NCBI RefSeq assembly: GCF_000341225.1
Contig: NZ_ANAC01000017.1
Span: 1 to 64,000, forward strand
Length of the DNA stretch: 64,000 nt
From: Nocardiopsis alba DSM 43377
GTDB taxonomy: Bacteria; Actinomycetota; Actinomycetes; Streptosporangiales; Streptosporangiaceae
Reading direction: 5' to 3'
Shown here: in pieces, positions 7,948 to 23,506 of the stretch
Layout: the number at the start of each line of letters is the position of its first letter
Position numbering within the stretch: the stretch's first letter is position 1
Program-made: the position numbers and the translations under genes
Notes under the pieces: model-generated
Databases searched by the model: none
What the model was told of the DNA's origin: nothing
Seen by the model: the letters and a program-made list of their open reading frames with translations, nothing else

Positions 7948-8004
7948 GTGAACGTGCAGAGCAACTCCCTGATTCTCGTACTTGGTCGGCGCGCAGCCCA
8001 CTGA
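7948..8004 (+). CDS. ilvB leader peptide (18 residues)
   Basis: A GTG-started reading frame encodes MNVQSNSLILVLGRRAAH and stops at TGA. The Leu-Ile-Leu-Val-Leu-Gly-Arg-Arg core matches the ILVLG(K/R)R leader peptides known upstream of actinobacterial ilvB. The run of Leu, Ile and Val codons is the sensing element: ribosome stalling when branched-chain aminoacyl-tRNA is scarce would alter folding of the following RNA. No clear Shine-Dalgarno is visible; a downstream GTG at 7954 is an alternative start. Confidence 0.8.
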   Translation: MNVQSNSLILVLGRRAAH

Positions 8005-8058
8005 GCTACTTCTGCTGCGCGCCACCCTCGACCGCCACCCGGCGGTGGGGGTTTTTTT
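7988..8058 (+). promoter_or_regulatory. ilvB transcription attenuator
   Basis: Hairpin one (GGCGCGCAG at 7988-7996 with CTGCGCGCC at 8015-8023) overlaps the end of the leader-peptide frame. Hairpin two (ACCGCC-ACCC-GGCGGT, 8031-8046) is followed by GGGG and a run of seven T at 8052-8058, a textbook intrinsic terminator. The arrangement is classical ribosome-mediated attenuation controlling ilvBNC. The exact antiterminator pairing was not computed. Confidence 0.8.
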
Positions 8059-8139
8059 ATTGCCGCACCAGGTCGAGAAACCGGAACCACCACCACCAGA
8101 GCCCCTGTGCCGCTCTGGGCCTCGCTGAAGGATCTTGAG

Positions 8140-20402: not shown

Positions 20403-21518
20403 ATGAACAACAACACCACCACCACTGGGTTGACGTTCGACATCCGGCTCTCCGACCGGCGGAAGACCCCGCGGGAACGTGAGGAACTGCTGGAGAACCC
20501 CGGGTTCGGTCAGGTGTTCACCGATCACATGGTGAGCATCCGTTACACAGAGGGCAAGGGCTGGCACGACGCGGCCCTGGAGCCGTACGGGCCGCTCAGC
20601 CTGGACCCGGCCACCTCCGCCCTTCACTACGCGCAGGAGATCTTCGAGGGGCTCAAGGCCTACCGCCACCCGGACGGTTCGCTGGCCTCCTTCAGGCCGG
20701 AGGCCAACGCGGCGCGCTTCAACCGGAGCGCCGAGCGGATGGCGATGCCGGCCCTCCCCGAAGAGCTCTTCCTCAAGTCCATCGAGCTGCTGCTGGAGCA
20801 CGACGGGGACTGGGTCCCGTCCAAGGAGTACTTCAGCCTCTACCTCCGTCCGTTCATGATCTCCACGGACGTGGGCCTGGGGGTCAACAACCCCTCCCGT
20901 ACCTACGTCTACCTGCTCATCGCCTCGCCCGTGGGCTCCTACTTCTCCGGCGGCGTCAAGCCGGTGACGGTCTGGCTGTCCAAGGACTACACGCGTGCCG
21001 CCCCCGGCGGCACGGGCGCGGCCAAGTTCGCGGGCAACTACGCCGCGAGCTTCCTGGCCCAGTCCCAGGCGGTCGAGAAGGGCTGCGACCAGGTCGTGTG
21101 GCTGGACGCCCGCGAGCACCGATGGGTCGAGGAGATGGGCGGCATGAACCTGTGGTTCGTGTTCGGCGAGGGCGAGAACGCGCGCCTGCGCACGCCTCCG
21201 CTCACCGGCACCCTGCTGCCGGGGATCACCCGCGAATCACTGCTCACCCTCGCCCCCGACCTGGGTATTCCGGCGGAGGAGAAGCCCCTCTCCATCGAGG
21301 AGTGGCGCGAGGCGGCCGAGTCCGGCGAGATGACCGAGGTCTTCGCGTGCGGCACCGCCGCGGTGGTCACCCCGGTCGGCCACGTCAAGAGCGACGACGG
21401 CGAGTTCACCATCGGCGACGGCACTCCCGGGCCGATCACGATGCGTCTGCGCGAGGAGCTGGTCGGGTTGCAGACCGGTCTGCGCAAGGACGAGCACGGC
21501 TGGATCACCCGCTTCTAG
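20403..21518 (+). CDS. ilvE: Branched-chain amino acid aminotransferase
   Basis: PLP enzyme of fold type IV that performs the last transamination to Leu, Ile and Val. The 371 residues include the substrate/PLP region [17 protein letters not shown], the PLP-binding Lys in [12 protein letters not shown], the GGMNLWFVF strand and [13 protein letters not shown] near the phosphate cup. Length and motifs match the class II BCAT of actinobacteria. The start ATG at 20403 follows GAGAGGA. It has its own terminators on both sides. Confidence 0.96.
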
Positions 21519-21526
21519 GAAGGCGG

Positions 21527-21565
21527 GGCGTGGGCCGCTCGGGGGATCTCCGGGCGGCCCACGCC
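21527..21565 (+). terminator. Terminator of ilvE
   Basis: Twelve-base stem GGCGTGGGCCGC with GCGGCCCACGCC, followed by GTTTCCCC. Confidence 0.75.
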
Positions 21566-21649
21566 GTTTCCCCCGGGCCGTCGGCGGAGGGTTCCGGCCG
21601 ATGGGCGGCCTCGCGAAGGCCGGTCGGAAGCCACCCGATACGTCCGAAG

Positions 21650-21677
21650 TGAGAAATTCTCATCTCGTAGAGTGAGA
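21650..21677 (+). promoter_or_regulatory. Double palindrome upstream of the cimA leader
   Basis: Two abutting sites: TGAGAAATTCTCA (21650-21662), a perfect palindrome, and TCTCG-TAGAG-TGAGA (21663-21677), one mismatch from the ilvB-type pattern. They lie about 50 bases before the cimA leader-peptide frame. A regulator dimer could occupy either or both. Confidence 0.55.
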
Positions 21678-21728
21678 CATCTGCCCCCGAACAGGACCTC
21701 CTCGGTGGCCATGTGGCACACTGGCCTC

Positions 21729-21770
21729 ATGCCGTCCCAGGTCGTGATTATTCAGGGGCGCGCCGGCTGA
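21729..21770 (+). CDS. cimA leader peptide (13 residues)
   Basis: ATG-started frame encoding MPSQVVIIQGRAG with consecutive Val-Val-Ile-Ile codons (GTC GTG ATT ATT). ATT is a rare codon in this genome, which would strengthen stalling. The last part of the frame forms the left arm of the first attenuator hairpin. Ribosome binding sequence is weak. Isoleucine is the end product of the citramalate route, which fits the codon content. Confidence 0.75.
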   Translation: MPSQVVIIQGRAG

Positions 21771-21849
21771 CGACTTCCCGCGAACGCGCAGGGAAGGATC
21801 CGGACCCTGCCGGCGCGCTGACCTCTCGTGTCCACGAGGGGTCTTTTTT
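21758..21849 (+). promoter_or_regulatory. cimA transcription attenuator
   Basis: Stem one pairs GCGCGCCGGC (21758-21767, inside the leader peptide frame) with GCCGGCGCGC (21809-21818). The terminator stem pairs GACCTCTCG (from 21820) with CGAGGGGTC (to 21843) and is followed by six T (21844-21849). The layout is peptide, long hairpin, terminator, then the gene, as for ilvB. A ribosome stalled at the Val/Ile codons would free the right arm of stem one. Precise alternative folds were not computed. Confidence 0.75.
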
Positions 21850-21895
21850 GTTGGCCGGGACCGCCTTAAACCAGACCACTTCGGGAGTTCCACCC

Positions 21896-23506
21896 ATGAG
21901 GGACGACAGTTTCCACGTCTTCGACACCACGCTCCGCGACGGGGCCCAGCGCGAGGGGATCAACCTCCGGGTCTCCGACAAACTGGCCATCGCGAAGCTG
22001 CTGGACGACTTCGGAGTGGCCTTCATCGAGGGCGGATGGCCGGGGGCCAACCCCAAGGACACCGAGTTCTTCCGGAGGGCTTCACAAGAGCTCGATCTGG
22101 AACACGCGCTGCTCACCGCGTTCGGCGCGACCCGCCGTGCCGGTGTGAGGGCCGCCGACGACCCACAGGTGGCCGCCCTGCGCGACAGCGGCGCGTCGGT
22201 CGTCACTCTGGTCGCCAAGAGTGACGACCGACACGTCGAACGTGCCCTGCGCACGACCCTCGACGAGAACCTCGCGATGATCGCCGACACCGTCTCCCAC
22301 CTTCGCGAACACGGCCAACGCGTGTTCGTGGACTGTGAGCACTTCTTCGACGGCTACCGTCACCACCCCGAGTACGCCCTGTCCGTGGTCCGGACGGCGG
22401 CCGAGGCCGGGGCGGACGTGGTCGTCCTGTGCGACACCAACGGCGGCATGCTTCCCGCCGACATCACCCGCGTGGTGACCGAGGTGCGCGAGGCCACCGG
22501 GGTCCGTCTGGGTATCCACGCCCAGGACGACACCGGCTGCGCCGTCGCCAACACCCTGGCCGCCGTGGACGCCGGCGCCACGCACGTGCAGTGCACCGCC
22601 AACGGCTACGGCGAGCGGGTCGGCAACGCCGACCTGTTCTCGGTGGTGGGCGCCCTCGCCCTCAAACGCGGCCGGGAGATCCTTCCCGAGGGCTGCCTGG
22701 GGGAGATGACCCGGGTGTCGACCGCGATCGCGGAGATCGTCAACCTGGCCCCCGACACCCACCGGCCCTACGTGGGGGTCTCCGCCTTCGCCCACAAGGC
22801 CGGGCTGCACGCCTCCGCCATCAAGGTCGACCCGGACCTGTACCAGCACACCGACCCCGAGCTGGTCGGCAACCGTATGCGCATGCTCGTCTCCGACATG
22901 GCCGGGCGCGCGTCGGTGGAGCTCAAGGCCCGCGAGCTGGGTCTGGACCTGGGCGACGACCGGGCGCTGTCCGGACGCGTGGTGGAGCGGATCAAGGGGT
23001 TGGAGCTGTCCGGGTACAGTTTCGAGGCGGCCGATGCCTCGTTGGAGCTGCTGCTGAGGGAGGAGCTCGGGGAGTCGGTCCGCTATTTCGAGACCGAGTC
23101 GTGGCGGGTGCTGACCGAGCGCCGTCCGACCGCCGGTTCCAGCCCGTTGGCCGGTGAGGACGAGAGCCTGTCCGAGGCGACCGTCAAGCTCCGGGTCAAG
23201 GGCGAGCGGGTCATCGCCACGGCCGAGGGCAATGGTCCGGTCAACGCGTTGGACCGGGCCCTGCGCAGCTCGCTGGAGCACGCCTTCACCGCTCTGGGCG
23301 GCCTGGAACTGACCGACTACAAGGTCCGCATCCTGGAGGGCGCCTCGGGCACCGACGCGGTCACCCGCATCCTCGTCACGTTCAGCGACGGGGGCGAGGA
23401 GTGGACGACGGTGGGCGTGGGGCCCAACGTCGTGGACGCCTCCTGGGTGGCGTTGGAGCAGGCCATCACCTACGGACTGTTGCGACAGGGCTACCCGCGC
23501 GACTGA
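21896..23506 (+). CDS. cimA: Citramalate synthase
   Basis: Condenses acetyl-CoA with pyruvate to (R)-citramalate, the threonine-independent entry to isoleucine. The start ATG at 21896 has GGGAG eight bases upstream and lies after the attenuator. Of 536 residues, the first 280 are an HMGL-type TIM barrel (VFDTTLRDGAQREG, GWPGANPKD, LGIHAQDDTGCAVAN), the middle has the mobile SAFAHKAGLHASA loop, and residues from about 390 form a LeuA-type allosteric dimer domain. Length and the GWPGANPKD signature separate it from 2-isopropylmalate synthase. The product would be processed by the leuCD and leuB enzymes, all in this window. Confidence 0.92.
   Translation: MRDDSFHVFDTTLRDGAQREGINLRVSDKLAIAKLLDDFGVAFIEGGWPGANPKDTEFFRRASQELDLEHALLTAFGATRRAGVRAADDPQVAALRDSGASVVTLVAKSDDRHVERALRTTLDENLAMIADTVSHLREHGQRVFVDCEHFFDGYRHHPEYALSVVRTAAEAGADVVVLCDTNGGMLPADITRVVTEVREATGVRLGIHAQDDTGCAVANTLAAVDAGATHVQCTANGYGERVGNADLFSVVGALALKRGREILPEGCLGEMTRVSTAIAEIVNLAPDTHRPYVGVSAFAHKAGLHASAIKVDPDLYQHTDPELVGNRMRMLVSDMAGRASVELKARELGLDLGDDRALSGRVVERIKGLELSGYSFEAADASLELLLREELGESVRYFETESWRVLTERRPTAGSSPLAGEDESLSEATVKLRVKGERVIATAEGNGPVNALDRALRSSLEHAFTALGGLELTDYKVRILEGASGTDAVTRILVTFSDGGEEWTTVGVGPNVVDASWVALEQAITYGLLRQGYPRD

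Follow-up and report, generated by a model that had tools for sequence, protein, structure and literature searches.

What governs expression of the citramalate synthase gene cimA in Nocardiopsis alba, and does the short open reading frame (ORF) in front of the gene take part in its control? We addressed this in the window, a 64,000-nucleotide stretch of the genome (contig NZ_ANAC01000017.1, positions 1 to 64,000), following an earlier note that had read an amino acid attenuator into the region. The gene (21896–23506, forward strand) encodes a protein of 536 residues assigned to the TIGR00977 equivalog, which it matches with 627.2 bits (cut-off 450). The branched-chain aminotransferase gene ilvE (20403–21518) lies 5' of the element, and the gap of 377 bases between ilvE and cimA holds, in this order, a −10-like box, a leader ORF, a helix that we refer to as P1, and a predicted intrinsic terminator.

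All of these parts lie on the forward strand. The −10-like box, CACACT (21717–21722), was recognized by reading the sequence and is located 6 nt upstream of the leader ATG; a consensus scan of the element region returned no sigma-70 promoter-like site. The box suggests a leaderless transcript that begins close to the leader ATG, and a loose pattern for such a box, 6–10 nt before the start, is matched in 74 of 182 distinct loci with an Ile-Ile leader. The leader ORF, MPSQVVIIQGRAG, comprises 13 codons (21729–21770), with its ATG at 21729, its TGA stop at 21768–21770 and the candidate regulatory codons ATT ATT at 21747–21752. P1 has 11 pairs, one of them G-U. Its 5' arm, GGCGCGCCGGC (21757–21767), lies inside the leader ORF, while its 3' arm, GCCGGCGCGCT (21809–21819), is flush with the terminator, as in relatives; both arms are supported by the predicted fold and by covariation among 52 relatives. 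The predicted terminator, GACCTCTCGTGTCCACGAGGGGTC followed by T6 (21820–21849), consists of a 10-pair stem at 21820–21843 and the T-run at 21844–21849, is supported by scan, fold and covariation, and ends 46 nt 5' of the cimA ATG at 21896. The leader peptide, stem and terminator that had been proposed for this region are all present in the sequence. The stem had been described as ten bases long and overlapping the coding region; the overlap holds, but the helix has 11 pairs. The terminator had been placed 130 bases before cimA, a distance that must be revised to 46 nt; it is the leader stop codon that sits about 125 nt upstream.

Could such an arrangement arise by chance? The terminator alone is weak evidence, because the scan found one terminator-like site where shuffled sequences gave 0.6 ± 0.8. 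The fold of 21755–21855 has a z-score of −3.5, with none of 200 shuffles equally stable, and both P1 and the terminator are present in the predicted minimum-energy fold. Covariation was assessed in an alignment (A1) of 52 elements with short P1 loops, excluding the window element and Streptomycetaceae. With P1 and the terminator taken as the structure, 94.0% of the cells in A1 are paired, compared with 87.3% after shuffling, and 89 cells carry double changes, compared with 24.4 ± 3.9, a level reached in 0 of 500 shuffles. When the pairing partner was slid by 1–3 columns, at most 14 double-change cells were obtained. Changes on both sides of a pair occur in 6 of the 10 P1 pairs and 6 of the 11 terminator pairs of this alignment. 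A flush helix of such quality was also compared with those available in shuffled versions of the upstream 115 nt: at 126 of 179 distinct loci it beat all 20 shuffles, and at 160 it was better than at least 19 of the 20. At the gathering threshold, the only Rfam families in the whole window were three tRNAs; extending the search up to E = 1 within 21500–22000 gave one chance-level match and no T-box.

The element is conserved well beyond N. alba. A DNA search with 21640–21900 matched 40 of 40 genomes of the genus, the window's own genome included. The alignments are conserved from the −10-like box through the U-run, with drifting flanks. The script placed 38 distinct sequences from the genus, and every one of them has Ile-Ile 4–5 nt before P1. 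In the family, a CimA protein search gave matches in 150 of 150 genomes at E ≤ 0.001; a few were weak (as poor as 2.7e-6), and the set therefore includes proteins other than CimA. We examined the upstream regions of the 30 best loci and of 20 more, hand-chosen over genera; among the latter 20, a terminator is present in 17, and 3 have neither terminator nor Ile leader. The nearest genera share the leader type [MV]PSQVIIIVRRAG with few changes, and other types, such as MFYGLLIIGRRAG, occur in the remainder of the family. A set of 80 CimA loci divided into 12 Nocardiopsis-like and 68 from Streptomycetaceae; in the latter, leaders read VLSFAMIIGSRRAGPQ or variants (19 of the 68 loci aligned), and Ile-Ile precedes P1 in 70 of 84 distinct Streptomycetaceae sequences. 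Two cimA loci labelled Glycomyces fuscus carry a Nocardiopsis-type leader and a CimA 90% identical to that of the window; this label may be wrong.

Across the class, CimA was found at E ≤ 1e-100 in 195 of 246 sampled genomes. From these we hand-picked 60 upstream stretches over families (one as a filler), of which 57 were placed: 30 have an Ile-Ile leader and a terminator, in 7 a terminator is present but the codons differ or no ORF was accepted, and for 20 the script gave no terminator, although an Ile leader is present in 3 of these 20, along with what looks by eye like a hairpin. Sequences of the Ile-Ile leaders include VSTQVIIT, VHDQVIIR, VALPLIIA, VAQALIIG, MNTQVIII and VTAVIIII. A covariance model (R1) built on the cimA elements of A1 scored 71.8 bits at the cimA element and 33.7 bits at the ilvB leader of the window, with the next matches at 9 bits or less. 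At E ≤ 0.01 it matched at least 168 of the 246 class genomes, some by construction because their elements belong to the training set. The search scored 19 candidates per genome under strict filters, and its count is a lower bound, since it missed the ilvB element of the window's own genome. Among the cimA positions listed, R1 lies on the same strand within 225 nt upstream of cimA in 115 of 150 class genomes (median 62 nt), and 8 more genomes beyond these 150 have a match before cimA, identified by N-terminal sequence. Family f3, which has Streptomyces-type leaders and lies outside the training set, has R1 before cimA in 20 of 21 cases.

No match was listed upstream of cimA in the remaining 35 of the 150, of which 19 belong to family f85, 6 to family f92 and 10 to others. 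In f85, none of the 19 listed genomes has R1 before cimA, and seven upstream regions inspected from this family contain no Ile leader and no terminator. Four of these seven share another stretch before cimA (aacccgtc..cgtcGCGCG ... ccggGCGCGtga), with a possible helix by eye and no Ile codons. In three small genomes of f92, cimA directly follows what appears by eye to be an ilvE-like end.

Outside the class, an Ile-run leader precedes cimA at 5 of 17 loci, and at 11 of 16 further loci that were chosen partly because their family had shown a leader. By eye, a P1-like helix followed by a terminator-like hairpin is present in families f30 (4 of 4) and f36 (1 of 1), and a GCTCCCGTAG/CTGCGGGAGC-type helix without a U-run in f48 and f17. 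Ten extra-class loci (L323–L327, L337, L184, L186, L195 and L198) have Ile-run leaders that, by eye, end in a GCTCCCGTAG...CTGCGGGAGC-type helix lacking a U-run, which perhaps represents a different output, Rho-dependent or translational. The peptide codons and the terminator, whose conservation in close relatives the earlier note had made the test of its proposal, are kept beyond the genera it named, the codons being those for isoleucine. Because of this conservation across relatives we consider the observation real, and it is close to certain, as judged from comparative sequence analysis, that the region is a conserved regulatory leader of cimA.

Which amino acid does the leader address? Both a terminator and a flush helix are present at 204 distinct loci, and 182 of these encode Ile-Ile within 18 nt 5' of P1, compared with 0.5% in control windows; an ATT codon falls within the same distance in 193, compared with 3.8% in upstream control windows. 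P1 was re-picked for this count; the automatic choice of P1 failed at some loci, for example L091, L137, L144, L148, L151, L181, L183 and L204, and in the re-picked set L231, L235, L236, L238, L241 and L247, which lowered the counts. The loci without Ile-Ile include some with Ile-Met, Ile-Thr, Val-Ile, Ile-Val-Ile, Cys-Ile-Thr-Thr or single Ile codons. The rest of the peptide varies freely between families, as in VSTQVIIT, VALPLIIA, MNTQVIII and LLIIGRRAG, which argues for codon sensing rather than peptide sensing. The earlier note had pointed to codons for both isoleucine and valine. The isoleucine part stands, whereas valine as a second sensed amino acid was dropped, as the valine positions vary, drifting to Leu, Ile or Ala, and isoleucine is constant; the conserved regulatory amino acid thus appears from the comparison to be isoleucine and not valine.

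ATT had been called rare in this genome, and the count agrees: 32 long, high-GC3 ORFs contain 482 Ile codons, of which 7 are ATT, a baseline taken from the window alone. Among leader Ile codons, ATT accounts for 54 of 79 in the genus, 34 of 84 in near genera, 123 of 140 in Streptomycetaceae, 19 of 34 in the rest of the family and 41 of 71 in the rest of the class. A rare tRNA was considered as the cause and dropped: ATT and ATC are decoded by one tRNA(Ile). Slower wobble decoding is our guess at the reason for the use of ATT. TAG serves as the leader stop codon at 23 of 31 loci that fall outside family f1 and Streptomycetaceae (for example L213, L224 and L232). The idea that TAG is kept for the sake of P1 was abandoned, as the last base of the stop is the first base of P1, as picked, in only 11 of the 31 and lies directly before P1 in 10.

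Relative to the terminator stem, the 3' arm of P1 ends between −2 and +1 nt at 211 of 228 loci (a count with duplicates), with a gap of −2 in 63 of the 228; this range makes an overlap of 1–3 nt possible. Over 175 distinct loci we found no conserved helix that competes with either arm of the terminator. The best upstream pairing of the terminator 5' arm is −7.41 kcal/mol, compared with −8.02 in shuffled sequences (median rank 60 of 100), and that of the 3' arm −10.33, compared with −10.17 kcal/mol (rank 45). Given that P1 and the terminator coexist and that no competing helix is conserved, pairing alone leaves antitermination unexplained. The fold of 21770–21855 also pairs GUUGGC, which follows the U-run, with the 3' arm of P1; we rejected this helix because it becomes possible only once the polymerase has moved beyond the terminator.

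Ribosome geometry was considered at 165 distinct Ile-Ile loci, with the front edge of the ribosome assumed to lie 12 nt past the first A-site base. Under this assumed footprint, a ribosome whose A site holds the first Ile codon of the run leaves 8 nt or more of the P1 5' arm uncovered in 158 of the 165, and one whose A site holds the last leaves 5 nt or more in 156; with the stop codon in the A site, the arm is wholly covered in 148. P1 would thus be exposed when the ribosome stalls at isoleucine and hidden when it reaches the stop, so that P1 would be expected to favour read-through if the element serves end-product control. The isoleucine codons, P1, the terminator, the flush junction and the spacings are all conserved in this comparison.

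From these features we consider it likely that the element is an isoleucine-sensing, ribosome-mediated transcription attenuator of cimA, acting via leader translation and termination. We infer from the sequences that the ORF is translated, that the hairpin terminates transcription, that the element responds to isoleucine and that P1 hinders the terminator. The amount of citramalate synthase would be governed by the supply of charged isoleucyl-tRNA. The transcript probably begins at the leader ATG, with a ribosome trailing RNA polymerase through the 13-codon ORF. When isoleucine is ample, the ribosome would reach the stop codon and mask the 5' arm, preventing P1 from forming; in the absence of P1 the terminator would fold and transcription would halt before cimA. 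When isoleucine is scarce, the ribosome would stall at the two ATT codons with its front edge at the start of P1, allowing P1 to form against the terminator base and hinder the terminator, so that cimA would be transcribed. For the action of P1, we favour steric hindrance or a 1–3-nt overlap over a long competing helix. In the steric version, P1 would abut the base of the terminator on one side, be held against the stalled ribosome on the other, and impede closure of the terminator; if this model is true, antitermination depends on the spacing between P1 and the terminator. Published work on related leaders bears on the proposal from both sides. According to excerpts of the respective papers, expression was low and unresponsive when the LVVI codons in the ilvB1 leader of M. 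tuberculosis were replaced (PMC13236596), and mutations in C. glutamicum ilvBNC support an antiterminator overlapping the terminator by about 3 nt (PMC11857589). Against it, changing the regulatory codons of the S. coelicolor ilvB leader was reportedly without effect, as stated in an excerpt of PMC1262725.

The same mutations in C. glutamicum, with their 3-nt overlap (PMC11857589, in excerpt), also lend weight to a different possibility, that the element is a classical attenuator whose competing antiterminator was missed by our comparison, for example a bulged helix between RGG in the P1 5' arm and CCU in the terminator. RRAG-type leaders have an AGG or GGG that overlaps the beginning of the 5' arm of P1 and, judged by eye, could base-pair with CCU(C) in the 5' arm of the terminator. 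Leaders that stop right after the Ile run, however, typically have TA(G) at this position, which is unable to form the pairing, and over the 175 distinct loci upstream pairing with the terminator arms is no better than in shuffles; we regard a missed antiterminator as possible rather than probable. It is far harder to see the hairpin as a constitutive terminator that might, for example, close the ilvE unit upstream, with the short ORF incidental. The element does come after ilvE in the window, and terminator-like sites are common enough on their own (one found, 0.6 expected), but this reading, the least credible of those considered, leaves aside the class-wide conservation of P1, of the Ile codons and of the spacing between the two, and also the fact that related elements with codons suited to the gene precede cimA, ilvB, leuA, leuS and threonine-dehydratase-like genes.

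Two further explanations retain the leader and alter how it works. Sensing not by stalling at codons but through a nascent arrest peptide, with isoleucine or a pathway intermediate as its ligand, would fit the near-constant peptide [MV]PSQVIIIVRRAG of the nearest genera. Yet little beyond the Ile run persists across families, RRAG is constant because its codons form the P1 5' arm, and the preference for ATT, a rare codon in this genome, leaves the peptide unchanged; an arrest peptide therefore appears improbable to us. We give similarly little credence to control of cimA at translation initiation, through masking of the Shine-Dalgarno sequence, instead of at termination. Some other classes of the phylum do have leader peptides before a hairpin that lacks a U-run, but the hairpin in the window has one and lies 46 nt before the start codon, and the GGGAG before cimA falls outside P1 and the terminator, likewise in the aligned near genera. 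The isoleucine-responsive attenuator remains our preferred reading.

The cimA element is not the only one of its kind. The earlier note had likened it to the attenuator of ilvB, a resemblance that is borne out for the architecture by the R1 match to the window's ilvB leader (33.7 bits at 7975–8059, forward strand). There, the leader ORF VQSNSLILVLGRRAAH (7954–8004) contains ATT CTC GTA CTT, and the P1 arms GGCGCGCAGC and GCTGCGCGCC (7988–7997 and 8014–8023) are followed by a terminator with a T-run that extends to 8058; the stretch 7948–8058 has the same P1-flush-terminator anatomy as at cimA. We examined 20 further R1 matches in class genomes, among them the 8 before cimA given above. Four lie before ilvB, three of them assigned by family (L303, L305 and L312) and one by N-terminus (L313), two before leuA (L304 and L306) and one before leuS (L315). 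The two leuA genes, both in family f79, follow short Leu leaders, MKHLLLIESARH and MTNLLLT, each ending at a stop and accompanied by P1 and a terminator, unlike the described LEU element. Three matches in f85 (L309–L311) precede threonine-dehydratase-like genes, whose best match is to threonine ammonia-lyase models, below cut-offs; in two of them, L309 and L310, the leader ends in Met-Gly-Ile-Thr (MGIT). These positions raise the prospect that control in f85 may have moved from cimA to ilvA. In family f86, two Ile leaders, MFTPRIII and MFALVIIM, with P1 and a terminator, precede a gene without an assignment; at one of these loci (L307), the ORF after the element resembles an ACT-domain protein by eye. 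We propose, tentatively, that this chassis might be general in Actinomycetota, with codon swaps serving cimA (Ile), ilvB (Ile/Leu/Val), leuA and leuS (Leu) and threonine-dehydratase-like genes (Ile/Thr), and with variants of the cimA leader in other classes; so broad a scheme is possible but still doubtful.

How does the element relate to known systems? As in trp/his/ilv-type attenuators, a leader ORF carries consecutive codons for what would be the end product (182 of 204 loci), and a terminator lies, in silico, between the leader ORF and the structural gene. The T-box of actinobacterial ileS likewise responds to isoleucine supply. T-boxes bind tRNA directly, and the window differs in having no Rfam T-box match. 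The closest likeness is to the ilvB leaders of actinobacteria (the Corynebacterium ilvBNC/ilvB-II motif, Mycobacterium ilvB1 and Streptomyces ilvB), which, in excerpts of the papers describing them, combine an ORF with branched-chain codons, an upstream helix and a U-tailed terminator (PMC10272879, PMC11857589, PMC13236596, PMC1262725). The cimA element differs from these in targeting citramalate synthase and in a run of isoleucine only; it has no conserved helix competing with the terminator arms, a result obtained on cimA leaders and not on ilvB leaders. The ilvB-II motif is located before ilvB, whereas the element described here precedes cimA in a window that has a separate ilvB leader. According to excerpts of PMC1262725, the LEU element of leuA similarly places a leader ORF with an end-product run before a related synthase, but works through a pseudoknot of the Leu codons with the Shine-Dalgarno box; the cimA element has a terminator and no Leu run. 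The Streptomyces leuS and trp attenuators, in the same excerpts (PMC1262725), share a leader peptide and a predicted terminator and antiterminator, and differ in their amino acids and genes.

The earlier note had known of no description of the element, and our literature search found no paper on a cimA leader. Leader peptides of actinobacteria are described before ilvB, leuA, leuS, trp, trpS and cys genes in the excerpts of PMC1262725, and the reannotation of S. lividans, as excerpted, lists 8 leader peptides, none for cimA (PMC8079986). A cimA leader did not appear in the available excerpts of this leader-peptide literature (PMC1262725, PMC8079986, PMC11857589, PMC2965389, PMC8632094, PMC10272879, PMC13236596, PMC4833913, PMC11550727 and PMC8269248, the last without a search for the word cimA), and the word cimA has 0 occurrences in PMC11857589 and PMC1262725; a prior mention is possible, for example in Lopatovskaya 2010 or in S. 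clavuligerus lists of premature transcripts. As far as we have seen, the kind of element is already known, and its target, its isoleucine-only sensor and its flush arrangement without a conserved competing helix are apparently undescribed.

The arrangement raises the question of whether a helix flush with a terminator, held in place by a stalled ribosome, can block termination without sharing bases with it. For strain work, an isoleucine attenuator would be a possible bottleneck for cimA expression. If our reading is correct, cimA, ilvB, leuA, leuS and perhaps ilvA would be under versions of one element, and the citramalate route to isoleucine would be under specific, RNA-level end-product control in a large part of the class, including Streptomyces and Nocardiopsis.
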